Source of the DNA: a virus
Virus record (IMG/VR): IMGVR_UViG_3300042445_000748
Coordinates: 1 to 64,000 of that record
DNA: 64,000 bases
Reading direction: 5' to 3' (one strand)
In this document: positions 4,079 to 36,217 of the stretch, in pieces
Position numbering within the stretch: position 1 is the first letter of the stretch
Layout: each line of letters starts with the position of its first letter
Program-made: the position numbers and the translations under genes
The notes under the pieces: model-generated
The model's input: only the letters and a program-made list of their open reading frames with translations
The model's database searches: none
What the model was told of the DNA's origin: nothing

Positions 4079-4112
4079 TTGCTCGCTTATCTTTTAAACT
4101 GTTTATCCTTTA

Positions 4113-4121
4113 ATTATAGCA
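4113..4121 (-). promoter_or_regulatory. extended -10 promoter for oxygenase copy 2
   Basis: Minus strand TGCTATAAT; predicted start near 4106 gives a leader of about 28 nt before ATG 4078. It is divergent from the plus-strand promoter at 4135. Confidence 0.5.
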
Positions 4122-4134
4122 TATTGACCTTAAA

Positions 4135-4143
4135 TGGTATAAT
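4135..4143 (+). promoter_or_regulatory. extended -10 promoter, leaderless oxygenase gene
   Basis: TGGTATAAT with ATG 4150 six nucleotides after the hexamer, so the mRNA should begin at the start codon. Confidence 0.6.
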
Positions 4144-4149
4144 TAATGC

Positions 4150-4785: not shown

Positions 4786-4787
4786 TA

Positions 4788-6074: not shown

Positions 6075-6797
6075 CTATGAGTAATTTTTCTTGGACCAAA
6101 AGTTTTTTTTGTATCCATTTTCCATTACTTTTTTAATACCGTAAGACATTCTTTTAAATTGTTTATCATTATATTCTAATCCCTGAGAAATCCAATCTTC
6201 TCTTTTGATAAATATCATTTGATATATTGGAGTTCCAGCAGGTATCAAACCTTCAAACCCTTTCTTTACCATAAAAGGTATTGGCCCATTAACTGACCAT
6301 TTGTCTGTGTCTATAATACCATTCATTGTTAAGAATGGTAGATCTAATCTGTTTGCTGGATGAAAGTATAATGTGCTATACCCCGCTGGAGTCTGAGGTT
6401 CCCACTGAGTTATCCAATGAAATTCGTTAGTATAGTAGCCATCAAAGTTAGGAAACACTCTTCTAGAATCAGTGTCTTGTGCTCTTGTAGACAATGGTTT
6501 AATTGGACCAGCCCACTTATAAGTTATAATATCATTACCTGTATTTGGATCAATACCAAGATTAGTTATCTCTACATCACATATTAATTCTTGCGTATAC
6601 CCTGAAGTTAATGCATCTAAAAATGGTGGACATTTCTTTGCTGTACCGTCGTCCCTATTACCTCTTAAAGTTGGTTGAAGAGTAGGCATATCCTTAAACC
6701 ATTTTGGCAAATAGTTTTTTGCAGACTGTGGTCTTGGGGTCATAAACTCTACATCCTGGCTAGATGGAATAAAGTTTACCTCTTGACTATTGGTCAT
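6075..6797 (-). CDS. unknown phage protein, three-paralog family (member A)
   Basis: 240 residues. Clearly paralogous to the proteins at 20321-21082 and 21082-21810. Shared blocks in order: a [VIL]-P-[KE]-W-[FY]-K near residue 30; K-[KRM]-C-x-P-x-[FL]-D-x-[LM]-T-[SA]-G-Y near 54-68; a central P-x-G-Y-S-[TV]-[LI] then H-P-x-[NH]-R-x-[DE]-[LV]-P-F (about 138-155); and [KR]-x-[FG]-[KEQ]-G-x-I-x-x-G-T-P with K-R-[ED]-x-W near the end. The conserved Cys, His and acidic residues look like an enzyme or binding pocket. Function not known. The start overlaps the preceding small gene (ATGA). Confidence 0.7.
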   Translation of the reverse strand: MTNSQEVNFIPSSQDVEFMTPRPQSAKNYLPKWFKDMPTLQPTLRGNRDDGTAKKCPPFLDALTSGYTQELICDVEITNLGIDPNTGNDIITYKWAGPIKPLSTRAQDTDSRRVFPNFDGYYTNEFHWITQWEPQTPAGYSTLYFHPANRLDLPFLTMNGIIDTDKWSVNGPIPFMVKKGFEGLIPAGTPIYQMIFIKREDWISQGLEYNDKQFKRMSYGIKKVMENGYKKNFWSKKNYS

Positions 6798-9649: not shown

Positions 9650-10306
9650 CTATTTTATTCGTGTTATGGAAAATGCAGTTTTTTTACAAGGTTTTAATGC
9701 TGCTGTAATTGCATCTTTTTCTTTTTTATCAACAGACAGTGACCATCTAACCTTAACTGAAATCCAGTTAGTTAAATATTCACAGGTGTATGGTTTATTT
9801 GTTGGTAACCATTCTGCTGGATCTCTATCTGATTTTGATCTATTAGATGAACCTGTTACTGCAATTAAATGACGAGGATCTAATTGATCGTTTGCATACA
9901 TCTCACGTTTTTTTGCATCCCATGCACTAGCACCAGAATCCCAGGCTTCTGCTAATGGAACCATATGATCTACATCAAGTTTCTTTGCGTCAGTAACTTT
10001 TGCACTATCATAAATGCTAAGCCACTCTCCACCAACTATATTACATTTTGAATCAACATTTGGCTTTTTAATTGCTTCAGAAATAATAACAGATTTGCGA
10101 GCATCGCAACCATTTCCAGTTCCAACCCAATGCTTAAATTGTTCTCTTTTGTATCCTGTACGAACCTCATCGGCAACCTTTAATGCATTTAATGCTGATA
10201 AAGCATCTTTATATTTATTATCTACAGCATTTGCTGAAATAGTATTTAAAGATAAAACTGTTGCACAAACTGCAACTAATATTTTATTTTGAATTGTGTT
10301 ACCCAT
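9650..10306 (-). CDS. secreted HNH/DUF1524-type nuclease
   Basis: 218 residues. A signal peptide (basic start, hydrophobic core ILVAVCATVLSLNTI, ANA cleavage site near residue 27) precedes a domain with the HNH-like signature LDVDHMVPLAEAW near 112-124 and the downstream N-x(7)-HLIAV/NRSK-S-x-DPAEWLP block. Two cysteine pairs (GNGC / SKC and YTC / KPC) suggest disulfides outside the cell. This fold is common in secreted actinobacterial nucleases. It may degrade extracellular or competing DNA, or attack a neighbour's DNA (inference). Confidence 0.82.
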   Translation of the reverse strand: MGNTIQNKILVAVCATVLSLNTISANAVDNKYKDALSALNALKVADEVRTGYKREQFKHWVGTGNGCDARKSVIISEAIKKPNVDSKCNIVGGEWLSIYDSAKVTDAKKLDVDHMVPLAEAWDSGASAWDAKKREMYANDQLDPRHLIAVTGSSNRSKSDRDPAEWLPTNKPYTCEYLTNWISVKVRWSLSVDKKEKDAITAALKPCKKTAFSITRIK

Positions 10307-10991
10307 ATATATCTCCCATTTTTTCTACAGTAAAACTACTGTTGTTAGTATAAACAATATTTTTAATATTAGGCAACTTAATTATTTTAGCATCTGAAAT
10401 ATTATTTTTAATTAAATTGCTTACTTGTTCAAAATGTAACTTATCATTTTCAGTCATCCCAGAAACATGCTTAATTCCAATAACAACCTGTTTGTTAGTA
10501 GATAAAGCATCTACATACTGTTTAGCATTTTTACCATTCCATGATTGATAAGTGTCAGTCATTAATGTGGTGTCTTCTTTCCAATCAAACAAACCAAATT
10601 TCCTAATAACGTTTATTGCCCTTGTTGGTAAGGCATCTTCGTGTGTATCTCCAGTGTTAACTATTCTATGATCAAAGACTGTTGGATCTTCCCACGCTCT
10701 TGCAGTATTGTTTTCTTTTGTATCTACCCAAACCACTACATCTGCTTTTCCAAATATAGTTCTATATTGCTCTATATTAAATACAGCATCTACTATTACT
10801 GGTTTATCTTGTTTAGATTCTAAAATTCTTGCTAATTCTCCTAGTTTGTGATAGTATGTTAATTCATTAGGCCCTGACAAAAAATTAGTAAAAGTTTCTT
10901 TATCTAAATGTATGCCGTTAATTCTATCTCTTACTGCATCTGCAATCTCAGTTGCACCAGAACCAGGTAGTCCTATAAATTGAATTATCAT
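10299..10991 (-). CDS. APS-kinase-like P-loop protein with altered P-loop
   Basis: 230 residues, starting at the ATG that follows the preceding stop by 1 nt (a longer upstream reading would overlap the neighbour). It aligns by pattern to phage adenylylsulfate-kinase-like proteins: GLPGSG at 7-12, LDKE near 30, VIVDAVF near 78-84, a VVWVDT strand near 96-101, WEDPTVFDH then N-A/R-x-Y. The Walker A lysine is replaced by alanine (GLPGSGAT), so ATP hydrolysis or transfer is doubtful. The last 80 residues are an extra domain. See the partner at 10993. Confidence 0.65.
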   Translation of the reverse strand: MIIQFIGLPGSGATEIADAVRDRINGIHLDKETFTNFLSGPNELTYYHKLGELARILESKQDKPVIVDAVFNIEQYRTIFGKADVVVWVDTKENNTARAWEDPTVFDHRIVNTGDTHEDALPTRAINVIRKFGLFDWKEDTTLMTDTYQSWNGKNAKQYVDALSTNKQVVIGIKHVSGMTENDKLHFEQVSNLIKNNISDAKIIKLPNIKNIVYTNNSSFTVEKMGDIYG

Positions 10992-10992
10992 T

Positions 10993-11445
10993 TTAACTAA
11001 AGTGCCTGTCGTATTGTAAAACAACTTCTGCAACCATACTATCAATAGATCCAATAGATTTAGTAATCATTAGATCATACTCGTCTTCTAGAGGCTCTTC
11101 CCATTTAAAGTCAGAGGGAGCATTTGGTGGTGGAGTTGGAATAATTGCATCCTTTTCATCAATTGTATTTACCCAAACAGTAAATGTTTTTTCCGCATAA
11201 TAAGAATCCTTGAATTGAGTCCTTGCCTCTTTTGTTGGAAAATATCCACTTGGAACATATAGTTGTATGTTATTTTTTGAGGCCACGCTACCAATTGTTC
11301 TTAGCCATCTTGCGTACGGAGACTCAGTGCTTGCAGTTGGCAATTCTCTGTCTGTACAAAAAAAACCATTCATTTTATCTGAAAATTCTTTTGCTACTTT
11401 ATTTCTAATTTCTGGATCTAAGCCAAAAAACTGAACAGTATACAC
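10993..11445 (-). CDS. APS-kinase-like paralog with lost P-loop
   Basis: 150 residues, GTG start with AAGGAC upstream. It keeps the family frame of its neighbour (YTVQFFGL strand, TFTVWVNTID strand, the W-x2-P-x(4)-YDLMI element) but the P-loop is gone (GLDPEIRNKVA), so it cannot bind ATP in the usual way. A Pro-rich insertion TPPPNAP lies near residue 109. It overlaps the upstream gene end and may form a heterodimer with the 10299 product (inference). Confidence 0.55.
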   Translation of the reverse strand: MYTVQFFGLDPEIRNKVAKEFSDKMNGFFCTDRELPTASTESPYARWLRTIGSVASKNNIQLYVPSGYFPTKEARTQFKDSYYAEKTFTVWVNTIDEKDAIIPTPPPNAPSDFKWEEPLEDEYDLMITKSIGSIDSMVAEVVLQYDRHFS

Positions 11446-12184: not shown

Positions 12185-12213
12185 ATTATATCACAAAAAT
12201 GCTATATTGACAG
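12185..12213 (-). promoter_or_regulatory. sigma-70-like promoter with extended -10
   Basis: CTGTCA (12208-12213) 17 nt TATAAT (12185-12190) with a TGA extension, on the minus strand, overlapping the end of the glycosyltransferase gene. Leader with AAGGAG before ATG 12169. Confidence 0.6.
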
Positions 12214-13146
12214 TGTTTTGTTTATTTGCCAATACTTTTCTATCATATTTATTTCTTTATAGAAATCTACAATTGTTCTTGGCAAACCTAATAAAGTAAA
12301 ATATTTATTTTCACCCAATAACATTAATTTTTTAACTTCTTTTGTCATTTCATCTTCGTCAAATACCCATATTCTTGTCCAATGATCTGGATTATTCCTA
12401 TCTGTACCAACAAATTTCCACCATCTTTCATCGTATGGAAATGAGTACTTGATATCGTTACCAGCATAATGAACTATTGCATTATTGTACGGAGCAACAA
12501 CATCATATCCTTGACAATATACTGCAATAGACTGCTCTGGTTCTTCAAATGGAAATCTATGGTACGAAGGAAAATTTATTGCCTTAATATCTGAAGATTT
12601 TGCAAATATAAAATTACAAGAAATATAATAATTTTTAAAATATTTTTCATTAACTTTATCCTTATTTGGTACAAACTTAAGTTCAACAACTTCTCCGTGT
12701 ATATCTAGTTGATCAAAGGTTCCTTCTAAGATCCAGTCTGTCTTCCAATTATGCTTACCCTGAATAGATGCTGTAGCCTGCCTAGAGATTATTCTCTTCT
12801 CATTATTCTTAGTTAACTCTTCAATGTCATCTATCAAACATTCATCCCAATTAAGTTCAAAATCTGCATGAGCATCAATGCCCAAAAAATAGGATTCGTC
12901 CTCAATTAGACCCCTTATGGCCTCTCTAATGCCCACTATGCCTGGCAGCCCATCTGCAACATCGCTATCTCTAACAATTTTTACGTTATTAAACATAGAT
13001 AAATCTGGCTCTTGTTTATAGTTAAGCCCAAGTCCAAATACAATATTTTCTGGATAGTATGCTGTATCTAATATGTGGTTCATGGTATCTACCAAATGGG
13101 TATCTTCCCATGCTGGAATTGATACAAATATTTTTTTATTTTTCAT
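12202..13146 (-). CDS. GlcNAc-transferase-like glycosyltransferase (PF11397 type)
   Basis: 314 residues. KKIFVSIPAWEDTHLVDTM opening and an acidic D-A-H motif at 91-93 in a strand (FLGIDAHADF) match the Skp1-type GlcNAc-transferase family, where that motif holds metal and nucleotide-sugar. Later motifs include NFIFAKSSDI and RFPFEEPEQSIAVYCQGYDV, a His/Glu-rich substrate face. The start is the ATG with AAGGAGAAAA upstream and an 11-nt overlap with the SGNH-like gene; the long upstream reading is unlikely. Probable surface glycan transfer. Confidence 0.78.
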   Translation of the reverse strand: MKNKKIFVSIPAWEDTHLVDTMNHILDTAYYPENIVFGLGLNYKQEPDLSMFNNVKIVRDSDVADGLPGIVGIREAIRGLIEDESYFLGIDAHADFELNWDECLIDDIEELTKNNEKRIISRQATASIQGKHNWKTDWILEGTFDQLDIHGEVVELKFVPNKDKVNEKYFKNYYISCNFIFAKSSDIKAINFPSYHRFPFEEPEQSIAVYCQGYDVVAPYNNAIVHYAGNDIKYSFPYDERWWKFVGTDRNNPDHWTRIWVFDEDEMTKEVKKLMLLGENKYFTLLGLPRTIVDFYKEINMIEKYWQINKTLSI

Positions 13147-14008
13147 TTTTCTCCTTATATTTTTTATAGAATTGTTCTGCCCAGTATTTATGAAAGACTG
13201 TGCCATGATGTCCATCTCGTTTTTCCATAGCGATAGAGTTTTTATTTAAAGCAATATAATCTTCATAAGCACGTTCCTCAACTATGGAGGTGTCTACAAA
13301 ATTATCTGAATGCAGATTAAAAAGTTCTAAATCATTAATAAACTCATAATTCCATGTGCTCCAAAAAAAATCTGTTTTAGTTTTGCTGAGTAGGCTTTCA
13401 AAAATTTTAATACTTAAATAGTTATGAATTAAAACCGTATTATAATCGGACTCCGTATACTTTCCTAAAGTTGGCTGTTCTGTATTTTGATCAAAAGCCC
13501 CTACTCTGTAAAAACCACTAGACAAATTATAATCATCTGCATGCATATATGCAGATTGCCTTGGTACGTTAGGTAACATAAAAAATATTGCATCTGGTAG
13601 GCCAAACTCTTTTATGTATTCTGATACGACATTTACAATTTCATCTACCCCTCCGCCAGGAATTCCTATTGAAAAAAAACCAGAACATGTATCATCTTTA
13701 TTGATGCTATCATATAACATTTTGCTCCAGCAATCTTCTATAACAGAACCCTCTCCCCAAGTTTCTGAACATCCAGCAAACAATATGTGATTTTTATCAA
13801 CGTGATCTTTTTTAAATTCATCACATCTCCAACCATAACTGTTTGTTTTTAAATAATATTCTATTCTTTCATTAGTTATGTAATGAGATATGGAATCTAT
13901 TCCATCAAAATTTTTCTCTCTATAGTGTGTTAGAGTTGAAAATGGATATTCTTTATTATAGACTTCTGGCCTAACATCCACTGTTTTGTATTTCCATTTA
14001 CGAGACAT
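13136..14008 (-). CDS. SGNH-like protein with GCS block I (copy 1)
   Basis: 290 residues. A Tyr-Gly-Trp-Arg-Cys-Asp-Glu-Phe stretch (57-64) leads to HILFAGCSETWGEG (74-87), matching SGNH/GDSL block I but with Cys in place of Asp (GCS for GDS). Block II is a SIGIPGGG turn, block III a PDAIFFMLPNVPR stretch, and block V a DGHHG...FH region near the end. The serine and histidine are kept. Possible esterase or acyl-transferase. It is followed by the glycosyltransferase gene (11-nt overlap) and preceded by the carbamoyltransferase. Confidence 0.7.
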   Translation of the reverse strand: MSRKWKYKTVDVRPEVYNKEYPFSTLTHYREKNFDGIDSISHYITNERIEYYLKTNSYGWRCDEFKKDHVDKNHILFAGCSETWGEGSVIEDCWSKMLYDSINKDDTCSGFFSIGIPGGGVDEIVNVVSEYIKEFGLPDAIFFMLPNVPRQSAYMHADDYNLSSGFYRVGAFDQNTEQPTLGKYTESDYNTVLIHNYLSIKIFESLLSKTKTDFFWSTWNYEFINDLELFNLHSDNFVDTSIVEERAYEDYIALNKNSIAMEKRDGHHGTVFHKYWAEQFYKKYKEKNEK

Positions 14009-15441
14009 TATACGATTAAGTCCTTTTTATATACATTCTGCCAATTAATTATATCAGTTTCATCATTTAACAATGGTTGGCCTTTAATATTTAAACTAGT
14101 ATTTAATAAAATTGGAACCTTAGATATTTTGTACCATTTAGACAGTAATTCGTATAATCCAGGATGCTGTTCTTTATTTACAGTCTGAACCCTAGAAGTT
14201 CCATCCTTATGAACTACTGAAGGGATAAGGTCTGGCTTTAAACACTTAACGGCATACTGCATATATGGACTTGTAAAACTCATATCAAACCATTTACTTG
14301 CATGTTCTTCCATAACAACAGGAGCAAACGGTCTAAACAACTCTCTTTTTTTTATTTCATTTACCTTATTTTTAATTTCAGGATCTCTTGGATCAGCAAG
14401 TATGCTTCTATTTCCTAGTGCTCTTGGTCCATATTCTGCTCTTCCACTTGCTACCGCCGCAATTCCGTTATTCACTATTTCATTTAATGCTGCATCGACT
14501 GGATAGTTATCTCCTAAATCATATCCAAGAAATGGTGTTTTAAAATCAATGTGCTTTCCGTACAATGCTGCTGCTGCACCCAGAGAACTTCCAGCATCTC
14601 CAGGGTTTGGCATAATCCATATATCATCAAATATATTCCACAACAATGTATTAGCAGAACAATTAAGAGCACACCCACCCATAAAAACTAATTTATTTTT
14701 TTTAGTTAATCTTTTTGCCATATACATAAAATCTATTAACTTTATTTGATAAACTTCTTGTACTGCTGCGGCAATATCAAACCTATCTTGCTCAGTTATT
14801 TCTGATCCCCAATCAAAAATTCCTTTATGAAAATTATATTTTTGATACCCAATTGATGGAAAGTATTCTAAAACCTTTTTAAAATATTTTTGTTTATCTC
14901 CATAGGCAGCCATGCCCATCATTATGTACTCTTCTTGGTTTGGCATTAGCCCAATAAGTTGAGTAAACGCAGAATAAAATAAACCAAAACTAAAGGGATA
15001 ATTATCTTTGTACATTAACTTAATGTTATTTCCTTCTCCAGTCCAAATAGTAGAGGTGTTGAATTCACCAATTGAATCAAGAACAACTATTGCTGCATCA
15101 TCAAACTTGCTAGTATAGTACCCTGCTGCTGCATGCGAGTAGTGATGTTTAAAATTAGTTCTTGGTATTGCATTAAGATAAGTATGTTCAAACCAAGGCT
15201 TACCGCCACCAAAACCACCACGAGTTTTAACTCTTAGTTTCTTTAAAAATGGATTTTCATAGTAGGCTATTTGATCTGGAATCCCATACTCCAATGCATT
15301 ATCTATTAAACCCTTGTTGGTAAACCAATCATTTTTAACTTTGCTATATCTTTCAGCGTGACCAGCAAATAAAACTTTATCGTCTTGTATTAAAGATATA
15401 GATGCATCATGTGTAGTTTCATTAATTCCCATTATTAACAT
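14008..15441 (-). CDS. carbamoyltransferase (NodU/CmcH family)
   Basis: 477 residues, first ATG with GGAGGT 5 nt upstream. The N-terminal Kae1-like domain shows GINETTHDASI (5-15), an HHYSHAA box (99-105) and a FMGGCALNCSAN strand near 255. The C-terminal domain has the EYGPRALGNRSIL block near 350 and RPFAPVVMEE. These enzymes transfer a carbamoyl group from carbamoyl phosphate to a hydroxyl, usually on a sugar or antibiotic. It is shorter than NodU (about 560 residues) but both domains are present. The position between two SGNH-like genes and a glycosyltransferase points to sugar decoration. Confidence 0.92.
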   Translation of the reverse strand: MLIMGINETTHDASISLIQDDKVLFAGHAERYSKVKNDWFTNKGLIDNALEYGIPDQIAYYENPFLKKLRVKTRGGFGGGKPWFEHTYLNAIPRTNFKHHYSHAAAGYYTSKFDDAAIVVLDSIGEFNTSTIWTGEGNNIKLMYKDNYPFSFGLFYSAFTQLIGLMPNQEEYIMMGMAAYGDKQKYFKKVLEYFPSIGYQKYNFHKGIFDWGSEITEQDRFDIAAAVQEVYQIKLIDFMYMAKRLTKKNKLVFMGGCALNCSANTLLWNIFDDIWIMPNPGDAGSSLGAAAALYGKHIDFKTPFLGYDLGDNYPVDAALNEIVNNGIAAVASGRAEYGPRALGNRSILADPRDPEIKNKVNEIKKRELFRPFAPVVMEEHASKWFDMSFTSPYMQYAVKCLKPDLIPSVVHKDGTSRVQTVNKEQHPGLYELLSKWYKISKVPILLNTSLNIKGQPLLNDETDIINWQNVYKKDLIV

Positions 15442-16243
15442 TTTCTACCTCCTTAATTCTGTACATTGCTTCTTTAAACCATGCGTAGTGAACTGCTTCG
15501 CTAGGGTGTGTCTTATCTGATCCAAATATTGTCATATCTTTATCATTATTTTGTATAAAGTCAAATGTATTTTTTGCAAATCTTTCTTTATTTATTTGAT
15601 AATAGGTATTAAAAGAATCTTTCATCATTTGATGCATATACTCTTCAAAATCTGGAATATAGATATCTATAAAATCAGTAACTCCTGTAACCAAGTCTGA
15701 CCAACCAGTTGTAAACAACTTTACGTTATTAGTTTTACACATATCTTCTAATATACTATATAAGTTAAATATAAAAATTTCTACCAAGGTTCCATCTAGT
15801 CCACGAAATGTATTAAACTTAAACCAGTCTCTTCCATAATTTGGAAAAAGTATAAATATATAATCTGGATATCCATGTTTAGATATATACTTGAAAACAT
15901 TAAGTATTATTTCTATCGTTGATCCACCAGACAATCCAACATTAAAGTATCCACTGCACGGAGTATGCTCATTTATCTGATCATATAACTTATATGACCA
16001 ACTTTTTTTAATATCATTTAACCCGCATCCAACGGTTATAGAGCATCCAGCAAATAAAATATTTGTTTTATCTTTGCTAACTTCTGTAAAAGAATCGCTA
16101 ATATATGGGACAAACTCAATTGATTGTTTTGTTAAGTCTGGATTAAGAAATGGACCTATGATATCTTTATTTTTGTGCAACAAGTATTTAAAGTGCTGAG
16201 GTCTTTCTTCTCTATCTTGATTAATTATATCTTCAAATTCCAT
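15422..16243 (-). CDS. SGNH-like protein with GCS block I (copy 2)
   Basis: 273 residues; GCS at 66-68 in ILFAGCSITVGCG, block II NVGLSGGS, block III DYIFILFPNYGRD, and a block V S-D-K-T-H-P-S-E region near 250. The N-terminal lead lacks the Y-x-S-D-E-F sequence seen in copies 1, 3, 4 and 5, making it the most divergent copy. It overlaps the carbamoyltransferase start by 20 nt. Promoter region 16244-16311 is A+T rich with only weak -10 candidates. Confidence 0.68.
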   Translation of the reverse strand: MEFEDIINQDREERPQHFKYLLHKNKDIIGPFLNPDLTKQSIEFVPYISDSFTEVSKDKTNILFAGCSITVGCGLNDIKKSWSYKLYDQINEHTPCSGYFNVGLSGGSTIEIILNVFKYISKHGYPDYIFILFPNYGRDWFKFNTFRGLDGTLVEIFIFNLYSILEDMCKTNNVKLFTTGWSDLVTGVTDFIDIYIPDFEEYMHQMMKDSFNTYYQINKERFAKNTFDFIQNNDKDMTIFGSDKTHPSEAVHYAWFKEAMYRIKEVENVNNGN

Positions 16244-16311
16244 ATTAATATATAAACTCTCTCTTTTTAAAATGTTTTTTATTTTTTCTTAACCAAAAAT
16301 AAAATTTAATT

Positions 16312-17259
16312 TTATATATTATTTTTTTCATTTAAATACCTTTCATAGAAATATTTATACCATGCATGATGAAATGCATTTCCGTGATGTTTATTTTTAT
16401 CTGGTGCAATAAATAAGTATGGATCGTTTGAATTATTTGTAGCAAACTCATAAACATCTTGTTGAATTTTGTAAATATCCATCAACTTAAAGGTTGCGGT
16501 GTATCTTTCTAAATATTCAAGTTGTTCAAAAGGATATCTTTCTTTAAAATTACTGTATAGTCCAGTATCTCCAAACTTTCCTTCAGCAGTTAGTTGATGA
16601 TTGTATACGTCAACATTAAAGTACTCCTTGTCGGCACCACGCAGCAAACTATCAACAATATTTTTTTTATCATTTAGAACCCAACTAGTTGACACTAACT
16701 TTGTGCCATTGCTTTTGCACAAAAACTCTAAATGCCTATATAGTTCTGTAATGATGGGAGTTAAAGATTTTTCTGGCTCTTTAAAATAACTGGCGTCTCT
16801 TTCAATTTCTGGTAACAGAATAAATATTATTTTTGGAAATCCATAAGACTGAATATATTTATTTATGTTTATTAATATCTCAAATATACTTCCAGCACAT
16901 AATCCTAGATTGTAGTAACCATCAATATTGACATCTTTTTTAATTGCTTCATAAAGTCTATATGACCAAGTTTTTTTATACTCTACGCCAGCACCAAAAG
17001 TATTTGAACATCCAGCAAAAAGTATGTGATCTCCATCATGATCTTCTGTAAACTCATCTGAACGAAAGTTGTCTGAATTTAAAGTGTAGTCTAAATCATA
17101 TTTTAACCCATCCTCCAACTCTTCATCTAACAATTCTTCAGATAAAAAATTTCTTTTTTTATTTATTATAATGTTAAATTGTTCTTTTGACATTTCTTTT
17201 AATCCATTGCCTATTAAAAAAAGAGAGTTGTTGTGAAAAAAATCATTATTATTGTTCAT
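16312..17259 (-). CDS. SGNH-like protein with GCS block I (copy 3)
   Basis: 315 residues from the ATG at 17259 (11-nt overlap with copy 4; RBS AGCAGGT). NSDNFRSDEF (61-70) then FAGCSNTFGAG with GCS at 83-85; block II NLGLCAGS; block III KIIFILLPEIERD; block V P-D-K-N-K-H-H-G followed by FHHAWYKYFYERY. Very similar to copy 4, implying recent duplication. Function unknown beyond fold. Confidence 0.68.
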   Translation of the reverse strand: MNNNNDFFHNNSLFLIGNGLKEMSKEQFNIIINKKRNFLSEELLDEELEDGLKYDLDYTLNSDNFRSDEFTEDHDGDHILFAGCSNTFGAGVEYKKTWSYRLYEAIKKDVNIDGYYNLGLCAGSIFEILININKYIQSYGFPKIIFILLPEIERDASYFKEPEKSLTPIITELYRHLEFLCKSNGTKLVSTSWVLNDKKNIVDSLLRGADKEYFNVDVYNHQLTAEGKFGDTGLYSNFKERYPFEQLEYLERYTATFKLMDIYKIQQDVYEFATNNSNDPYLFIAPDKNKHHGNAFHHAWYKYFYERYLNEKNNI

Positions 17260-18139
17260 CTGTATACCTGCTGTAAAAATATTTATACCAGGCGTAGTGG
17301 AAACCTTCTCCATGATGTTTTCCAGAATCTGGTGCAACAAGTATATTTTTATTATTTACTAATAAAGAATAATTATATATGTTTTCTTTAAAATCTTCTT
17401 GATATAAAACTTTAAAAGTTGATGAATATTTTTGTAAAGTTGCTAACTCATAATATGGATTTATTTCTTTTAGAAAATCATATACTCCACCTTCTGCGTA
17501 TTTGTTATCTCTAGTCTTATAATCTACATAAGAACTATATTCTTTAGTGTAATATTTTGCCATTTCTTCTTCATCCATATTAAGCCAACTTGTACTGAAT
17601 AGTGATGTGTTTGATTTTTTACATAAGTACTCAAACTCATTATACAGTTCAGCAATTATAGTTGTTAATGATATCTCTGGCTTTACAAAATATCTAATAT
17701 CTCTTTCTATTTCTGGAAACAGTAAAAATATAACATCTGGCATGGAATATCTTCTTATATATCTCTGAACATTTACTAATGTTTCAAAGATGCTTGCTCC
17801 TGAAGCACCCAGATTAAAATAACCACTTAACTTTTCTTCTTTTTTTATTTCTTCGTATAGTCTATATGCCCAGGTTTTTTCATATTCAACTCCTTCTCCA
17901 AAAGTATTTGAACATCCAGCAAAAAGTATGTGCTTGTCTTTATGTTTTTTAATAAACTCATCTGATCTAAAATTATCACTATTTAAGTTATATGAAATAC
18001 CAGTTTTTTTAACGTCATCTTTCATTTTGCTGCTTAATGGGTTTACCAAGAAACCTTTATTTCCCTTTATATTAAAGTTTTTATTTGCATTTGTAGGCTC
18101 ATCATCTGAAGATTCAACTTTATACAACTTTTCTTTCAT
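17249..18139 (-). CDS. SGNH-like protein with GCS block I (copy 4)
   Basis: 296 residues. NSDNFRSDEF (53-62) then ILFAGCSNTFGEG with GCS at 74-76; NLGASGAS block II; VIFLLFPEIERDIRYF block III; PDSGKHHGEGFHYAWYKYFY block V. Its first ATG overlaps the upstream oxygenase stop (ATGA). With copy 3 it forms the tandem duplicated core of the island. N-terminal 50 residues are variable. Confidence 0.69.
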   Translation of the reverse strand: MKEKLYKVESSDDEPTNANKNFNIKGNKGFLVNPLSSKMKDDVKKTGISYNLNSDNFRSDEFIKKHKDKHILFAGCSNTFGEGVEYEKTWAYRLYEEIKKEEKLSGYFNLGASGASIFETLVNVQRYIRRYSMPDVIFLLFPEIERDIRYFVKPEISLTTIIAELYNEFEYLCKKSNTSLFSTSWLNMDEEEMAKYYTKEYSSYVDYKTRDNKYAEGGVYDFLKEINPYYELATLQKYSSTFKVLYQEDFKENIYNYSLLVNNKNILVAPDSGKHHGEGFHYAWYKYFYSRYTDEQ

Positions 18140-18810
18140 TCTTGACCTGTAGAATTTCTAATCATGTCAGATGGTACATTATGAAACCAAGTAGGTACTG
18201 CATACCTCGGTCCCTTTAAAACAGAGTCAACTTCGTGAACATATAAAAAGTTAGATGGAAAGAATACAATACTACCTGCCGATGGTTTAATGGTTACATT
18301 TGATTGCTTAAATGTTATTTCTCCACCAACATAGTCATCATTAAGGTATAGCAGTACAGACAAAACCCTTGTACTAACTCCTTGGTCTTGATGTGGTGGC
18401 AAATATCCAGTCTTATCATATCTTAATAAACTAGTTGCGTGTTCTTTTGCTTTAACATTTTTTTGTGCAAATGGATATAGTTTGGTTGAATAATGTTTTA
18501 ATGCTTCATCAATTGATCCATGTATTCTAGAAGATATATTTCTTTGTTCATCTCTAAAGGTATCATCTTCTGATATCTGTTCCATAGTTGGAATAAATTT
18601 TTGCCAACAAAATATTTCTTTGGTTCCAGCACTTTCATTAACCCAAGGAGACCATGGTTGAACAACTGTTTTTTGTTTAACATCTTCAGGACTATTCAAT
18701 AGTCTTTCTTCTAAATCTTCTATATTTCTTATAATCTGATCAGTATTTTTTACAATATTTTTATAATATACTAATCCTAAATCTAGTACCTCATGATCTA
18801 TTAGATTCAC
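18136..18810 (-). CDS. 2OG-Fe(II) oxygenase, prolyl-4-hydroxylase type (copy 5)
   Basis: 224 residues. Ligands H140-x-D142 and H192, arginine R202 at +10; core LLYLNDDYVGGEITF. The N-terminal 110 residues are helical and unlike other copies. Its start overlaps the stop of copy 6 by 20 nt, and its stop overlaps SGNH copy 4, so oxygenases and SGNH-like proteins are co-translated here. That is the best direct hint of joint action. Confidence 0.87.
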   Translation of the reverse strand: MNLIDHEVLDLGLVYYKNIVKNTDQIIRNIEDLEERLLNSPEDVKQKTVVQPWSPWVNESAGTKEIFCWQKFIPTMEQISEDDTFRDEQRNISSRIHGSIDEALKHYSTKLYPFAQKNVKAKEHATSLLRYDKTGYLPPHQDQGVSTRVLSVLLYLNDDYVGGEITFKQSNVTIKPSAGSIVFFPSNFLYVHEVDSVLKGPRYAVPTWFHNVPSDMIRNSTGQE

Positions 18811-19417
18811 GCTCTTCTGCCTCTCGCTCTAATGGATACTCAACGGCTTGCCAAACTGGTTTTTTATTTTCTCCTAAAAAGTCTGGATCTGCATGTTCTG
18901 GAAGAGATGTGTGCATAAACAAAGCAGTATATCTATGCCCTTCAGTTACCTCTGTAATACCATGAATGTATTCAGTACCAGCACTTGGAAAAAATACTGC
19001 TGAATATTTCTTAGGTTGATAAACAAAGTCTTGATTAGGAAAAAATATCTTACCACCTTGATACTCTGGAGTTTCATTTAGGTAAATGATTGTGCTAAAC
19101 TCTATGAATGGTTCAGGACCTTGTGCATCTAGGTGCAACCCACCCCTTGTGCCCTTTACCCAGTGTGATCCAAAACCTTTAAACACATATATGGGATTAA
19201 GAAAACCATTATAGGATCTATGAACTTCGTTTGATTTATTTCCATATTTAATCATTACGTCCATAACGTTTTTGTTATACGGTAAAGATGTTCCACCATA
19301 TCTTTTTCCATAATATTCTGGATATGGATTAACCTCTGATGGGTTGTGCTGTTCCCTTATTAGGGTATCTGCGTCTTCTTTGGTTATAAAATTGTCTATT
19401 ACCGAAATTCTATGCAT
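18791..19417 (-). CDS. 2OG-Fe(II) oxygenase, prolyl-4-hydroxylase type (copy 6)
   Basis: 208 residues. Ligands H95-x-D97 and H152, R162 at +10; IIYLNETPEYQGGKIFFPNQ core. It has its own extended -10 promoter (19438-19446) and an AGGAAA RBS, so it probably begins the transcript running through the SGNH/carbamoyltransferase block. The GxRGGLHLD loop suggests a glycine-rich entrance to the metal site. Confidence 0.87.
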   Translation of the reverse strand: MHRISVIDNFITKEDADTLIREQHNPSEVNPYPEYYGKRYGGTSLPYNKNVMDVMIKYGNKSNEVHRSYNGFLNPIYVFKGFGSHWVKGTRGGLHLDAQGPEPFIEFSTIIYLNETPEYQGGKIFFPNQDFVYQPKKYSAVFFPSAGTEYIHGITEVTEGHRYTALFMHTSLPEHADPDFLGENKKPVWQAVEYPLEREAEERESNRS

Positions 19418-19437
19418 AGTTTTCCTATCTTTCTTAT

Positions 19438-19446
19438 ATTATACCA
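19438..19446 (-). promoter_or_regulatory. extended -10 promoter for accessory island
   Basis: Minus strand TGGTATAAT; predicted start near 19431, about 14 nt before ATG 19417. Confidence 0.55.
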
Positions 19447-20331
19447 CTAGTCAATGTAGTTAATTTTAGTCATAAACTTTTTAGAATCAACATCGTCAAA
19501 TTTGGACAGGTCCTGATCATACTCAACATCGTTCATTGGAAAAGGTAGTGGATGGATAGACTCTGGGTCAATCTTATGTAGTTTTAAAAACATGCTTACG
19601 TCTGGCATCATTGGTTGATCTATTGAATCATACTTATTTTTTTTATTTTTAAGTAGGTCAATCATCTCATTATAGTTATGATATTTTGAAAATGTAGTAT
19701 ATAGATCTTTTATCGTGTCTGACCCTTCCTTTGTATAAAAGTTGTCTGGACAACTATACATTTTGATATTATTAGAAAAATATAATAATGACAAAGTTTC
19801 TTCCTCTCCATAATATTTCATGTATGATGGATAGTTTACAGATTGTAGCGTTGACGTGTGGGCAAAAATTAAATCTCTACTAGTAAAATATACTTGTTCT
19901 ATTTTTTCTGTTTTTATTTCTTCTTTTTTTAAATAAAAAATTCCATCATTTGATAAGATAGTTTTATTCTTACCAGTTATTATTGATTGCTTGTTTGGTA
20001 AACTGCTTAATAAAAATTCATCCCAATCTTGATTTAGAAAAACATTATCTGATAATAATAGTGTATATGAAAATTTTGAATCATTAATAATTTTTTGTCT
20101 ATAATAGCAGGGACTTTTTATTTTATCCCAAAATATATGATTATATGTTAGACTATCAAATTGATCAAAATATTCTTGTTTAGTTAGGGTGCTTTGATCA
20201 TAAATATGCACATATATCATATTTTTTTTAGATGATTTTTGCAATAAATTATCTACAACTTTTTTTAATAACTTGCCTTTATATGAATATATGATTACAT
20301 TAATTGGATTAGGCAAATTTTCATTCGTCAT
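19447..20331 (-). CDS. glycosyltransferase-like protein (GT-A type, tentative)
   Basis: 294 residues. The N-terminal half has the GT-A look of the 12202 gene: strand INVIIYSYKG, strand IYVHIYDQS, SYTLLLSDNVFLNQDWDEFL near 90-108 with an S-D-N in place of the metal-binding acidic motif. A second acidic stretch YYGEEETLS lies near 167-175. No clear nucleotide-sugar signature, so it may be an inactive or new variant. It ends 30 nt upstream of the oxygenase copy 6 start. Confidence 0.5.
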   Translation of the reverse strand: MTNENLPNPINVIIYSYKGKLLKKVVDNLLQKSSKKNMIYVHIYDQSTLTKQEYFDQFDSLTYNHIFWDKIKSPCYYRQKIINDSKFSYTLLLSDNVFLNQDWDEFLLSSLPNKQSIITGKNKTILSNDGIFYLKKEEIKTEKIEQVYFTSRDLIFAHTSTLQSVNYPSYMKYYGEEETLSLLYFSNNIKMYSCPDNFYTKEGSDTIKDLYTTFSKYHNYNEMIDLLKNKKNKYDSIDQPMMPDVSMFLKLHKIDPESIHPLPFPMNDVEYDQDLSKFDDVDSKKFMTKINYID

Positions 20332-21082
20332 CGTATTCCTTTATTCCCTTTGTTCCAAATATTTTTTTTATCCATGCTGTTTTTTTATAATATCCATATA
20401 GCATGGACCTTCTATTCTCTGCTTTAAATTCATGTTCGTCAAACTTTTCTAAACTTGTGTCAACTTTCATCTCCCAGTTATCTCTTTTAAATGGAATTAT
20501 TTGAAACACAGGCGTTCCCCTTTTTATTACTCCTTGAAATCCTCTTTTAAGAAAAAATGCAGTAAAAACTGGTAGTCCCCAAATGTCTGACTCTACTATT
20601 CCAGACATAGTTATGAATGGTAAGTCGTGTCTGTTCATTGGGTGTGTTATTAAAACTGAATAACCTGGTGGTGTTTCGTAATACCAATTCATTCTCCATC
20701 CATAATGTATTGGGTGGCAGTTATCTGGTACAGGGAGATCTATTGTTGGTCTTTTATCCATAATCATTATGTCTTTATCCCAAGACAATTTTGGTTTTCC
20801 ATTTTTATCTAACTCAACTAAAAGATCATCTTCTAATAAATAATAATACCCTGCAGTTAAAGAGTCAAAAAAGGGCATACACATCTTAGTAGCAACTCTT
20901 GCACCGTCTCCACCTATATTATTAACTGGATTTAGATGTTTATCATCATTCCAAATTTCATGCTTTGCTAAACTTTTATACCATTCAGGAACATGTTTAA
21001 CTGCAGGTTCTGGTGGAATAAAAATACCTTCGTAATTTGGACCACCACCTGGAATAAATGATATATTTAAAGGATCACTCAT
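20321..21082 (-). CDS. unknown phage protein, three-paralog family (member B)
   Basis: 253 residues, paralog of 6075-6797 and 21082-21810 and in tandem with the latter. Shows VPEWYKSL near 32-39, KMCMPFFDSLTAGYY (about 67-81), PGYSVLITHPMNRHDLPF (about 156-173), KRGFQGVIKRGTPVFQ (about 199-214) and KRDNW. The 4-residue C-x-P-F-[FL]-D block and H-P-x-N-R look like active or binding residues. Its gene overlaps the GT-like gene by 11 nt. No family name can be assigned safely. Confidence 0.7.
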   Translation of the reverse strand: MSDPLNISFIPGGGPNYEGIFIPPEPAVKHVPEWYKSLAKHEIWNDDKHLNPVNNIGGDGARVATKMCMPFFDSLTAGYYYLLEDDLLVELDKNGKPKLSWDKDIMIMDKRPTIDLPVPDNCHPIHYGWRMNWYYETPPGYSVLITHPMNRHDLPFITMSGIVESDIWGLPVFTAFFLKRGFQGVIKRGTPVFQIIPFKRDNWEMKVDTSLEKFDEHEFKAENRRSMLYGYYKKTAWIKKIFGTKGIKEYDDE

Positions 21083-21810
21083 TACTTATATTCTTTTTTT
21101 TGTCTAAACTTTTCTTTATAAGAATTTCTAAAACTACTTCTAACTAACAACCTTTGTTTTTCTATTTCATCTTTACCATCACCATATGCAACACACTCTG
21201 AATCCCAAGACTCTCTCTTAACTGGTATTGCTTGAATAAGTGGCGTACCTTGTTTTATAATACCTTTAAAATCTTTTTTAATATACATAGAAAAGTGTCC
21301 ATCTGATGCAAACTTATCTGTATCTACAAATGCTTCAAATGCTTTAAAAGGAACTTCGTCTCTATGAAATGGATGAGTAAAGATAGTGCTATACCCTTTT
21401 GGTGTCATTATGGACCAAAATGGCAAGATTCTAAAAATTTGTTTATGGTATAGATTGGTATCTACAGGATAGTTAGAGATTTGCTCTGCAGTGTGAGTTG
21501 CGACCATGTCATTTCCAACAAACCTAAGTTCATTTGGAACGCTCCACTCTATTTTTTCTGGATTAGTAGCGTCTACATATACATCCATAGGAAACTTAAT
21601 AATGTATCCAGCAGTCATTAGATCAAATACTGGCATACATCTTTTTACTGTTCCACTACTCCCACCCTTGGCAATAAAATCTTTATATTCATCACCTATA
21701 AAACCTGGTTGTTGCTTATACCATTCTGGAATAAATTTTGATGCTGCTTCTGGGACAGGTGCAAACATTGCTGTTTTTTCGCTAAAAGGATAAAATTTAA
21801 TCCTGTTCAT
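21082..21810 (-). CDS. unknown phage protein, three-paralog family (member C)
   Basis: 242 residues; IPEWYKQQPGF (about 27-37), VKRCMPVFDLMTAGY (about 57-71), PKGYSTIFTHPFHRDEVPF (about 140-158), KKDFKGIIKQGTPLIQ, KRESW. It has an extended -10 promoter inside the preceding gene (21834-21842), so B and C may be transcribed separately from the upstream gene. It differs from B at the H-P-x-N-R site (H-P-F-H-R). Confidence 0.7.
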   Translation of the reverse strand: MNRIKFYPFSEKTAMFAPVPEAASKFIPEWYKQQPGFIGDEYKDFIAKGGSSGTVKRCMPVFDLMTAGYIIKFPMDVYVDATNPEKIEWSVPNELRFVGNDMVATHTAEQISNYPVDTNLYHKQIFRILPFWSIMTPKGYSTIFTHPFHRDEVPFKAFEAFVDTDKFASDGHFSMYIKKDFKGIIKQGTPLIQAIPVKRESWDSECVAYGDGKDEIEKQRLLVRSSFRNSYKEKFRQKKEYK

Positions 21811-22477
21811 ATAACTTCCTTACTCTCTCTACTATTATATCACTCGCTACGAACCTTATGTTATACATAGGGCTAAACCTTGGTATCTTGCCAAACTCGT
21901 GATCAACCATATGACTACCTGCGTTTTTAAAATGAAAATAAACGAAGTCAGTCTCAATCATCCTAGTAGTTTCAGGTATTTTTTTAAAATTCATTATACC
22001 TGGATATACAACAAAAGGAGAATTTTCTGGCTGTTCTATAAATGCTTCAACTTCCTCGTCAATAAGCCATGGCATATAAAATCTAAAAACATCAGCAAAA
22101 CAATCTTTAGGCAACTCAGGGGGCTCTTGATCTGATAAGTAGTATTGTCTAATCCATGGCCTATCTAAACTATACAAACCATCTTCCTTTTGAAGTAAAA
22201 ATATTTCAGCATGATTAGTTTGTTGCAATGTAATCTCATTATTTTTTATACTGATTAAATTAGGTTTTTGATATAGTTTTTTTGCATACAAGTTTATTGG
22301 TTTAATTATGCTGTCTTTATATTCATCTTTTATTCCTTCTTGATAAGAAAGCCATCTATGTGATACCCTAGACCTTTCATTAATATATAAAAAAGACTCT
22401 GATTTTGATTTATACCAAATATCAAAATCTAGACTTAGTGGAGTAATTGTTTCGTTACTCACTCTTCTTCTGACCAA
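21797..22477 (-). CDS. unknown protein, possible distant relative of the three-paralog family
   Basis: 226 residues with no assigned family. C-terminal FRFYMPWLIDEEVEAF, FVVYPGIMNFKK and TDFVYFHFKNAGSHMVDHEF patches are aromatic and His-rich. Position directly before members B and C, with a 14-nt overlap, suggests a shared job. I do not see the C-P-x-D and GTP blocks of the family, so kinship is doubtful. Confidence 0.5.
   Translation of the reverse strand: MVRRRVSNETITPLSLDFDIWYKSKSESFLYINERSRVSHRWLSYQEGIKDEYKDSIIKPINLYAKKLYQKPNLISIKNNEITLQQTNHAEIFLLQKEDGLYSLDRPWIRQYYLSDQEPPELPKDCFADVFRFYMPWLIDEEVEAFIEQPENSPFVVYPGIMNFKKIPETTRMIETDFVYFHFKNAGSHMVDHEFGKIPRFSPMYNIRFVASDIIVERVRKLYEQD
21834..21842 (-). 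promoter_or_regulatory. extended -10 promoter inside 21797-22477
   Basis: Minus strand TGATATAAT; predicted start near 21827, leader about 17 nt with AAGGAAG before ATG 21810. Confidence 0.5.
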
Positions 22478-22941: not shown

Positions 22942-22968
22942 TTGCTTTCCTATTCTGTTAATGTTGCG

Positions 22969-23040
22969 AGCCTCGACTCAGGTTTGAACTGAGGACCTTC
23001 CGCTTACAAGGCGGATGCACTACCACTGTGCTATCGAGGC
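22969..23040 (-). tRNA. tRNA-Thr (anticodon TGT)
   Basis: Cloverleaf read on the minus strand: acceptor GCCTCGA/TCGAGGC, D-stem GCAC/GTGC, anticodon stem TCCGC/GCGGA with loop CTTGTAA (anticodon TGT), T-stem CTCAG/CTGAG with loop TTCAAAC, discriminator U73. CCA is not encoded. Confidence 0.93.
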
Positions 23041-23041
23041 G

Positions 23042-23115
23042 TGGGAATAGTAGGACTTGAACCTACGATAGCCGAATTATGAGTTCGGTGCCTTAACCTA
23101 CTTGGCTATATTCCC
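23042..23115 (-). tRNA. tRNA with CAT anticodon (elongator Met or Ile2)
   Basis: Acceptor GGGAATA/TATTCCC, anticodon stem CCGAA/TTCGG with loop CTCATAA (anticodon CAT), T-stem GTAGG/CCTAC with loop TTCAAGT, discriminator A73. The G1-C72 pair and lack of GGG/CCC anticodon-stem pairs exclude initiator tRNA. It cannot be told from sequence whether it reads AUG or, after lysidine modification, AUA. CCA not encoded. Confidence 0.88.
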
Positions 23116-23117
23116 TT

Positions 23118-23193
23118 TGGCTGGCGTGGTAGGTCTCGATCCTACGACTTCGAAATTAACAGTTTCGCACTCTGCCAACTGAGTTACACGCCA
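23118..23193 (-). tRNA. tRNA-Asn (anticodon GTT)
   Basis: Acceptor TGGCGTG/CACGCCA, D-stem ACTC/GAGT, anticodon stem CGAAA/TTTCG with loop CTGTTAA (GTT), T-stem GTAGG/CCTAC, discriminator G73 and an encoded CCA, the only one of three tRNAs with it. The T-loop begins A (ATCGAGA) instead of the usual T54, a rare departure. Confidence 0.9.
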
Positions 23194-23199
23194 TCTTTT

Positions 23200-24102
23200 T
23201 TATTCTGAAACTAACACTAACTTGTCAGTAACAGTTAAACCTTTTTGCCATTGTGTTGCAACAGCAACATTTGCAGAAGAGGTTGTTTGAGGAATTAAAC
23301 CAAACAGCACTGAGCCATAATTAAACTTACCTGTTGGCAATACTCCAAAATAATCTGTATTAGCATCATGATTTCCTACTGGAAATGTAGAAACAGAAAC
23401 TGTATCAGTAATACATGCTGGATATGCTACTGGTTTTCTGTTTGAATCATTACCTGTAGAAACAAATACTGGAATGCCTTTATTTTTTAAACTGGCAACT
23501 GTTGATCTAATTGCTGGATCAACAATTTTAACATTAACTAATCCAGTTGGAGAAAGTTTACAATCTCCTGGCTTTGTCATATTTCCACTTAGTCCATAAG
23601 AAAATGACACAGCAGATACATTTGATGAATTAGTATCTACCCATTTTAATGCTGCAAGAAAATCATTTCCATTTAAAATTCCAACTGCACCTTTGTTTGA
23701 TACTGTTGCAGATCTAACTAATATAAGTGGAACATTTGGATTATTTCTACGAGCAACCTCAACCATAGCCATACCATGATTTACTGGATCAGAAACTCTC
23801 TTAGAAGGTTTCGGTGTATTTACACACTTATCTGTTGCAATACAAACAATAGTTGTGTTAGCAACTCTTGTATCAAAGTAACTATCAATAATTACAATTG
23901 GTTTAGTATTAACTGCTGGTGTTGGAGTTGGTGTAACAACTGGTGTTGGTGTAACAACTGGTGTTGGAACAACAACTGGTGTTGGACTCTCAACTATAGG
24001 TGTTGGAGTTGATGTAACAACTGGTGTTGGACTCTCAACTGCATTTGCTGGAACTGCTAGTACTGAAAATAAAACAGATAAAACAATAAACATTTTTTTC
24101 AT
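23200..24102 (-). CDS. secreted subtilisin-like (S8) protease
   Basis: 300 residues. Signal peptide with cleavage after ANA near residue 21, then a Pro/Thr-Val repeat linker (to about 64), then a subtilase domain with the catalytic triad D73 (VIIDSYFD), H109 (NHGMAMVEV), oxyanion N218 (VSTGND) and S275 (TTSSANVA, replacing GTSxAxP). All four are in the expected order. Its ATG overlaps the stop of the 58-residue gene (TAATG). A secreted serine protease could clear host surface proteins or act in lysis (inference). Confidence 0.83.
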   Translation of the reverse strand: MKKMFIVLSVLFSVLAVPANAVESPTPVVTSTPTPIVESPTPVVVPTPVVTPTPVVTPTPTPAVNTKPIVIIDSYFDTRVANTTIVCIATDKCVNTPKPSKRVSDPVNHGMAMVEVARRNNPNVPLILVRSATVSNKGAVGILNGNDFLAALKWVDTNSSNVSAVSFSYGLSGNMTKPGDCKLSPTGLVNVKIVDPAIRSTVASLKNKGIPVFVSTGNDSNRKPVAYPACITDTVSVSTFPVGNHDANTDYFGVLPTGKFNYGSVLFGLIPQTTSSANVAVATQWQKGLTVTDKLVLVSE

Positions 24103-25163: not shown

Positions 25164-25648
25164 TATTCTTCTCCTTCCCTTATTCGCATAGTTATTAACC
25201 ATACAAACAAAACAGTTATAATTGCATACCCTACAATAGTTTTTGCACTACCCTCGAGTACTAGCCATGCTGCGAACATACCTAGTAATGTCCACAATTG
25301 GTTTAATGTTTCTACAAATGCTTCTACTAGCCATGCCCATACAAATTTAACTACTGTCCATACTTTATTTAATATCCACACAATTAATTTCCAGATACTA
25401 ACAAATACCCATTTAATTGCATTCCAGATACTTGTAATAATCCAAGTAATAACTTGAGTACCTTCATTAATTACCCCAATTATTACTTTATATATACCTT
25501 TAAGTATCTTCCAAACAAGATTAAGAACATATTTAATTACCGCCATAACCTTGATTAGAATAAACTTAACTAGGTTTATGGGTAACATAACTACGAACTT
25601 AACTGCTTTGAAGATAAACTTAAAAGGTTTTAATATTGCCTTTATCAT
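25163..25648 (-). CDS. amphipathic Trp/Lys-rich membrane protein, unknown
   Basis: 161 residues with an unbroken series of amphipathic segments of 10-13 residues, each mixing Ile/Val/Leu/Trp with one or two Lys (KPFKFIFKAVKF, LVWKILKGIYKV, IWNAIKWVFVSIWKLI). Acidic residues are nearly absent until the last 40. It resembles membrane-lying or pore-forming helical repeats rather than a globular protein. No family recognised. Its ATG overlaps the proline-rich gene stop (ATGA) and its stop overlaps the holin-like gene (TAATG), suggesting a lysis or membrane role. Confidence 0.65.
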   Translation of the reverse strand: MIKAILKPFKFIFKAVKFVVMLPINLVKFILIKVMAVIKYVLNLVWKILKGIYKVIIGVINEGTQVITWIITSIWNAIKWVFVSIWKLIVWILNKVWTVVKFVWAWLVEAFVETLNQLWTLLGMFAAWLVLEGSAKTIVGYAIITVLFVWLITMRIREGEE

Positions 25649-35505: not shown

Positions 35506-35508
35506 AGT

Positions 35509-36216: not shown

Positions 36217-36217
36217 T

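Follow-up and report, generated by a model that had tools for sequence, protein, structure and literature searches.

A conserved gene module in a tailed phage, linked in its relatives to a proline-repeat tail protein, as a possible protein-modification cassette

What does a phage do with a compact run of genes for oxygenases, a carbamoyltransferase, and glycosyltransferase-like proteins? The question is raised by an island at positions 12202-22477 of the window analyzed here, which comprises the first 64,000 bases of the linear, 91,552-base and possibly incomplete IMG/VR record IMGVR_UViG_3300042445_000748. The record belongs to a tailed phage of a freshwater group; its genes include those for a DNA polymerase, a DnaB-like helicase, and a terminase, along with tail genes. 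An earlier sequence-only reading of the window had described the island as an accessory assembly that builds or edits a surface polymer on the virion or host. Here we favor a different answer, to which we give about an even chance: the island serves as a cytosolic cassette for protein modification, directed most likely at the tail adhesin of the phage itself, in particular a proline-repeat protein with FN3 domains.

The island consists of 12 compact, mostly overlapping genes on the minus strand, listed below in the order of transcription.

X226, 21797-22477, minus strand: orphan and first gene of the core module; beta-rich AlphaFold2 (AF2) model
D6065a, 21082-21810, minus strand: phrog_7084 family; dUTPase-like fold by AF2 model
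D6065b, 20321-21082, minus strand: phrog_7084/DUF6065 family; 30% identity to D6065a
GT2, 19447-20331, minus strand: divergent paralog of the PF11397 glycosyltransferase GT1
OG2, 18791-19417, minus strand: 2-oxoglutarate (2OG)-Fe(II) oxygenase of prolyl-hydroxylase type, PF13640
OG1, 18136-18810, minus strand: 2OG-Fe(II) oxygenase of prolyl-hydroxylase type, PF13640
SGNH4, 17249-18139, minus strand: SGNH-like protein with GCSNTFG ... D-x3-H
SGNH3, 16312-17340, minus strand: SGNH-like protein; real start probably downstream of the annotated TTG
SGNH2, 15422-16243, minus strand: SGNH-like protein, the sole one with a weak Pfam GDSL match
CT, 14008-15441, minus strand: O-carbamoyltransferase with Carbam_trans N and C domains
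SGNH1, 13136-14008, minus strand: SGNH-like protein with GCSETWG
GT1, 12202-13215, minus strand: PF11397 glycosyltransferase with invariant D-x-H; real start probably near residue 24

Every gene named in the sequence-only reading was found at its coordinates on the minus strand. That list overlooked X226, a core member, and also missed further oxygenases, a third D6065 gene, and the likely substrate, which lies outside the window. The two proteins that it placed together in an unrecognised family (20321-21082 and 21082-21810) do belong to a single family, phrog_7084; for one of them, PF19541 scored below threshold. Short overlaps join X226 and D6065a (14 nt), GT2 and D6065b (11 nt), OG2 and OG1 (20 nt), OG1 and SGNH4 (4 nt), SGNH2 and CT (20 nt), and CT and SGNH1 (1 nt). 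The longest overlaps, of GT1 with SGNH1 (80 nt) and SGNH4 with SGNH3 (92 nt), are probably due to over-long annotated starts; GT1 homologs start at a Met matching GT1 residue 24 or just past it.

To what extent is this set of genes a unit? A scan of IMG/VR with the carbamoyltransferase yielded 572 relatives, from which 80 loci were kept for neighborhood comparison, and a scan with GT2 yielded 210 relatives, with gene-order counts taken over 80 GT2 loci. These loci are kindred metagenomic contigs, many of them partial, and their counts do not represent independent events. The order X226–D6065–D6065–GT2–OG2–OG1, usually followed by CT with or without SGNH genes ahead of it, was kept in ca. 70 of the 80 GT2 loci, down to ca. 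31% identity. D6065 was located directly upstream of GT2 at 71 of the 75 loci with room for it, X226 and two D6065 genes preceded GT2 at all 70 testable loci, and an oxygenase gene directly followed GT2 at 75 of 80. Since the gene order is conserved at so many loci, the arrangement is more than chance. The sequence-only reading had taken the genes for one assembly and had named scattered homologs as a sign to the contrary; the homologs did not turn out to be scattered, and what we found is a real, conserved, and co-located module. Its variable part consists of the SGNH genes (0–3 ahead of CT) and GT1 (0–2). Among the 80 carbamoyltransferase loci, the flanking genes were conserved both with and without the X226-to-OG1 block; six loci (L017, L018, L020, L021, L028, and L029) carry homologs of prot173, DUF2061, ZnR, DUF7455, and kin251 and have no such block. 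This speaks for the term "accessory". Recent transfer as judged by composition was rejected, since the G+C content of the island (30.9%) differs little from that of the rest of the window (33.2%).

The evidence that links this module to a tail protein comes from its position in relatives, and we consider the link well supported. Beyond the window, positions 77927-79171 of the record encode a protein in which FN3 domains are followed by tandem FGFSPFxV repeats and whose PHROG matches are tail proteins. The same repeats are borne by a PASTA-domain protein at 87063-87953, also beyond the window. The C-termini of both proteins (CxDExSLxLTxxGYKKAKxI ... GVLVYHLYPID) look Hint/intein-like by eye and gave no Pfam match. 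A homolog of the repeat protein was present in 16 of 21 related records, the five without it being fragments of 49–80 kb, and in all 10 of the module-bearing records above 85 kb that were examined. Its repeats occur as FGFSPF, FSFTPF, FGFTPF, or FFPPFFPP, and in L327 and L421 as the proline-free FGAFGAF.

A form of the module lies 0–640 nt downstream of the repeat protein in L398, L402, L406, L410–L413, L416–L418, and records G031 and G033; it comprises X226, two D6065 genes, GT2, and candidate oxygenases of the phrog_2696 type, mostly together with the OG pair. A phrog_2696-type candidate gene is situated 0–60 nt from the repeat protein in eight records, including the present one (G000, G004, G013, G015, G017, G019, G021, and G024). 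In G025, G030, and G032, which have FFPP repeats, the neighbors of the repeat protein are a cluster of PF13640-type oxygenases and D6065. The type of repeat goes with the type of enzyme: FFPP with PF13640 oxygenases and GF[ST]PF mostly with the phrog_2696 type. The earlier proposal of a virion or host surface target gained on the virion side, with the genes beside the proline-repeat tail protein in two module and three partial arrangements.

D6065 shows a broader association of the same kind. At D6065 loci without GT2, an adhesin-like gene (Gly-rich, HxH, or repeat) was located just upstream in 21 of 41 cases, compared with 14 of 253 for other open reading frames (ORFs; Fisher p 3e-12, over related loci). 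Because PHROG annotates as tail only two of 10 sampled neighbors of this kind, the label "adhesin-like" mostly describes sequence character. In L327 and L421, with their proline-free repeats, D6065 is present and no oxygenase was found within 4–5 kb; since D6065 persists even without oxygenases, it is better seen as a partner of the adhesin than as part of the chemistry.

Can the island enzymes modify a protein? OG1 and OG2 scored 61.6 and 33.7 bits, respectively, against PF13640 (cut-off 27) and retain the HxD...H iron site and the 2OG-binding Arg. The solved structures nearest to their profile are prolyl 3-hydroxylase 1 (9e-14), a bacterial prolyl 4-hydroxylase (P4H; 4e-9), and PHD2. A prolyl residue as their substrate in this phage would be carried over from the relatives. 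CT scored above the Pfam cut-offs for Carbam_trans_N (115.8 bits) and Carbam_trans_C (176.4 bits), its nearest solved relatives being NovN, GdmN, and TobZ, and it misses the NCBIfam NodU equivalog cut-off (153.9 vs 1000 bits). The four SGNH-like ORFs are mutually paralogous (best pairwise E 1e-88 to 2e-20) and have GCS in block I. In an alignment of 29 sequences, Ser77 and His275 are invariant and an Asp is nearby in most, and there is no invariant Asn at the block III site. SGNH2, with the best Pfam GDSL score, reached 18.2 bits, below the cut-off of 23.6, and comparison of the SGNH profile with the Protein Data Bank (PDB) gave nothing meaningful. Given the absent Asn and the sub-threshold score, we call these proteins only "SGNH-like"; the earlier SGNH assignment keeps the GCS motif in four paralogs and stays at the level of motifs, as does the acyl or ester exchange that had been derived from it.

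GT1 scored 55.3 bits against PF11397 (cut-off 21), a family that we take to be GT60, and the D114 and H116 of its DXH metal motif are invariant across eight homologs; its profile had no match among PDB sequences. GT2 is homologous to GT1 by profile comparison (98.4%) and fails PF11397 (13.3 bits vs the same cut-off). It mostly retains a GEE motif, and the DXH position is unconserved, being occupied by SDN, GDS, YGR, or IDG. Sugar transfer, which the earlier reading had given as known chemistry of these families, is doubtful for GT2, whose DXH signature is lost; GT2 may bind sugar instead of transferring it. Elsewhere in the record are a GT61 glycosyltransferase (1134-2093) and, among the tail genes beyond the window, a weak Anp1-like protein (phrog_1574; 83801-84532).

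Further members of these families occur in the window outside the island:

2811-3392, minus strand: PF13640-type oxygenase
3389-4078, minus strand: PF13640-type oxygenase, sub-threshold
4150-4785, plus strand: PF13640-type oxygenase
4788-5444, minus strand: PF13640-type oxygenase
6075-6797, minus strand: third D6065 paralog, near these four oxygenases
29376-30347, minus strand: fifth SGNH-like paralog, adjoining terminase genes
33442-36757, minus strand: tandem row of five candidate phrog_2954-type oxygenases, of which that at 36218-36757 has no PHROG match of its own

In total, ca. 14 genes in the 91.5-kb record encode confirmed or candidate 2OG-Fe(II) oxygenases (seven with the PF13640 profile, five phrog_2954, and two of the phrog_2696 type) at 2811-5444, 18136-19417, 33442-36757, and, beyond the window, 73813-77883. 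Near the island, three tRNA genes (Thr, Met, and Asn; 22968-23193) lie directly upstream of its first genes. Two kinase-like proteins (10299-11445), one of them matching phrog_10255 "kinase", adjoin the island in many loci; their P-loop is seemingly degenerate (GLPGSGATE and GLDPEIRNK).

The D6065 proteins were compared with known folds. The AF2 model of D6065a, built from 26 sequences, had a predicted local distance difference test (pLDDT) score of 79. Its best PDB match was the Drosophila dUTPase (prob 1.0, E 2.6e-4, target-normalised template modelling score 0.73), and trimeric dUTPases accounted for all 50 matches listed. When the D6065 profile was compared with dUTPases from phages and E. 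coli, the similarity was not significant (hhalign 1.4%); in the same alignment, GxVDxD falls on dUTPase motif III and GTPxxQ on motif IV. D6065 lacks the C-terminal motif V and did not match PF00692, and its profile had no match among PDB sequences. A plain dUTPase was rejected for D6065: the fold fits and the family does not. The X226 model (pLDDT 88) is beta-rich with weak dUTPase-like matches. Sequence kinship between X226 and D6065 was rejected (hhalign no more than 13.9%); the order of elements is broadly alike in the two models, and since all PDB matches of X226 had E > 0.04, a common fold is put forward as a suggestion. The phrog_7084/DUF6065 family has at least 589 relatives in IMG/VR. 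Bacterial homologs are mostly in Rhizobiales chromosomes, where they are preceded by an anti-sigma-like gene at 26 loci, and their neighborhoods contained no informative partner gene. Our literature search found no paper on DUF6065.

In the cassette that we favor, the oxygenases would hydroxylate prolines, or neighboring residues, within the repeats of the tail protein. GT1, being GT60-like, would where present attach a sugar to the hydroxyl, as Gnt1 does on Skp1 hydroxyproline, and CT and the SGNH-like proteins would attach carbamoyl or acyl groups to the hydroxyls thus created, or remove such groups from them. D6065a, D6065b, perhaps X226, and GT2 would bind the adhesin, present it, or aid its assembly, and would not be nucleotide hydrolases. 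We infer each step of this chemistry, as well as the roles of D6065, X226, and GT2. The purpose is likely a change in the stiffness, protease resistance, or receptor binding of the tail adhesin. A wider proposal is doubtful, namely that freshwater tailed phages possess the full cytosolic route, with prolines of tail-adhesin repeats hydroxylated, the hydroxyls bearing sugar, carbamoyl, or acyl groups, and dUTPase-fold proteins as dedicated adhesin partners; phage virions would then bear a modification linked through hydroxyproline.

Several observations weigh against this cassette. In the present record, some 55 kb separate the island from the repeat protein, and the substrate in this phage is accordingly deduced from relatives. 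L409 and the truncated contig L167 have proline repeats and D6065 and no oxygenase within 4 kb. The phrog_2696-type proteins, in which H-D-H...H...R is invariant, had no Pfam match, and their profile gave nothing against the PDB; the motif makes them candidate 2OG oxygenases. GT1 is missing from most of the GT2 module loci that were mapped, and the DXH position of GT2 is not conserved; the core may therefore do without glycosyl transfer. Further candidate substrates in the record are the collagen-like protein at 90143-90871 and the Pro/Thr-rich linkers at 23200-24102 and 25645-26889. Finally, in the halovirus HSTV-2, D6065 (9899-10768) adjoins a thymidylate synthetase gene, which would fit a nucleotide role.

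This last point belongs to the main rival, hypermodification of DNA or nucleotides, in which the oxygenases would oxidise a base, GT1/GT2 and CT would add sugar and carbamoyl, and the dUTPase-fold proteins would handle the nucleotide. It owes its rank to the HSTV-2 neighborhood, to the fold of D6065a, and to a known phage carbamoyltransferase that acts on 5-hydroxymethylcytosine (5hmC) to make 5-carbamoyloxymethylcytosine (PMC8670742); moreover, a search of 15 records for a PF00692 dUTPase found none, although every one of them bears D6065. In that study, the carbamoyltransferase co-occurred with the PF00303 family specifically in modified contigs (PMC8670742), whereas no member of PF00303 (thymidylate synthase/hydroxymethylase family) was found in our linear and possibly incomplete record. 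The oxygenases belong to the prolyl-hydroxylase type, with Tet_JBP reaching no better than E 0.015, and are not TET/JBP enzymes; D6065 has no significant profile similarity to dUTPases, and relatives place the module among tail genes. We set DNA modification aside on the missing PF00303 and the oxygenase type, and consider it unlikely.

Editing of the host envelope, in which the cassette would alter a surface glycan or its precursor for superinfection exclusion or escape, is likewise improbable. In its favor, glycans or small molecules are common substrates of NodU/TobZ-type carbamoyltransferases and SGNH proteins, and in the cyanophage S-CAM1 the carbamoyltransferase gene adjoins heptose-type sugar genes and tail genes. 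However, all 12 island proteins lack transmembrane-like segments, and the island has no recognisable flippase, polymerase, or lipid-carrier enzyme. No membrane-associated or lipid-carrier step was recognised, and the building or editing of a surface polymer, as first proposed, is conjectural; envelope editing leaves the co-location with tail adhesin genes unexplained.

That the cassette acts on another virion or secreted protein, either the collagen-like protein or the Pro/Thr-rich linkers, is distinctly improbable. Collagen is the classic prolyl-hydroxylase substrate, and PF01391 collagen was found in the record, in the tail-region protein beyond the window, and above cut-off in 12 of 34 related records. 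Collagen-like proteins occur in module-bearing and module-free records alike, and we rejected them as a module-specific substrate on that ground. As for the PTPTP linkers, one belongs to the secreted-looking protein at 23200-24102 beside the island, homologs of which immediately precede the island at many loci, and the other to the second protein at 25645-26889; 23200-24102 opens with a signal-like segment and may therefore be exported before cytosolic enzymes act. A cluster for small-molecule or peptide biosynthesis, similar to antibiotic tailoring cassettes with NovN-, GdmN-, or TobZ-like carbamoyl transfer and 2OG oxygenases, is hardly credible: the nearest solved CT relatives do act on antibiotics, but no nonribosomal peptide synthetase, polyketide synthase, or lanthipeptide cyclase was recognised in the island, and the module is linked to tail genes in relatives.

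If the tail adhesin is indeed the target, many 2OG-Fe(II) oxygenases of aquatic phages, so far treated mainly as metabolic genes (PMC3037559), would be explained as virion protein-modification enzymes. A prokaryotic virus would provide a case of prolyl hydroxylation coupled to glycosylation, a pathway that protists are known to have, and the widespread phrog_7084/DUF6065 family of unknown function would acquire a tail-adhesin role. The repeat protein at 77927-79171 would become a specific object to test by mass spectrometry.

How does the module relate to catalogued phages and known systems? In a tblastn search (E ≤ 1e-3) of 50,697 phage records, GT2, X226, and SGNH4 had no match, D6065 was found in haloarchaeal tailed viruses only, and CT relatives occurred at low identity in cyanophages and others. 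In distant phages, the same families are recombined (GT1–D6065, GT1–OG, and SGNH–CT–SGNH–GT1–OG); at 56 distant GT1 loci, GT1 adjoins D6065 in 12 and an oxygenase in 10. Each enzyme family is already known singly. What appears new, within what was searched, is that they form a conserved combination absent from catalogued cultured phages, that D6065 has a dUTPase-like fold, and that the module is linked to a proline-repeat adhesin. We found no paper that joins carbamoyltransferase, 2OG, and virion glycosylation in phages, and a freshwater phage survey is silent on the subject (PMC6802176).

The Skp1 pathway occurs in Dictyostelium, Toxoplasma, and oomycetes, with hydroxyproline made by PhyA and the glycan started by a GT60-related pp-alpha-GlcNAc transferase (PMC8724618, PMC3515798); an enzyme with both P4H and GlcNAc-transferase functions is also known (PMC8724618). 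The island is similar in co-encoding a cytosolic prolyl-hydroxylase-type oxygenase with a GT60-like PF11397 transferase. The phage differs in having no Skp1, in adding dUTPase-fold, CT, and SGNH-like genes, and in its optional GT1 and DXH-free GT2, and any sugar, residue, and substrate of the phage system are putative. The phage 5hmC system shares the carbamoyltransferase superfamily (PMC8670742); here, the PF00303 hydroxymethylase is lacking, and the oxygenase type, D6065, and the tail-gene context are different. In the cyanophages P-RSM4 and S-CAM1, a distant CT (ca. 30% identity) lies near 2OG oxygenases and/or fibre genes, whereas tblastn found no relative of D6065, X226, GT2, or SGNH4 in them. 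With trimeric dUTPases, D6065a shares the model fold and the aligned motif-III-like GxVDxD and motif-IV-like GTPxxQ, and D6065 differs from them in PF00692, motif V, and profile similarity, as described above. Collagen prolyl hydroxylation, of which the mimivirus collagen enzymes are another example, resembles the present case in that prolyl 3-hydroxylase 1 and bacterial P4H are the nearest solved relatives of the oxygenases and the genome has a collagen-like protein; in contrast, the repeat protein co-located with the module in relatives combines FN3 domains with FGFSPF or FFPP repeats and is not a collagen.

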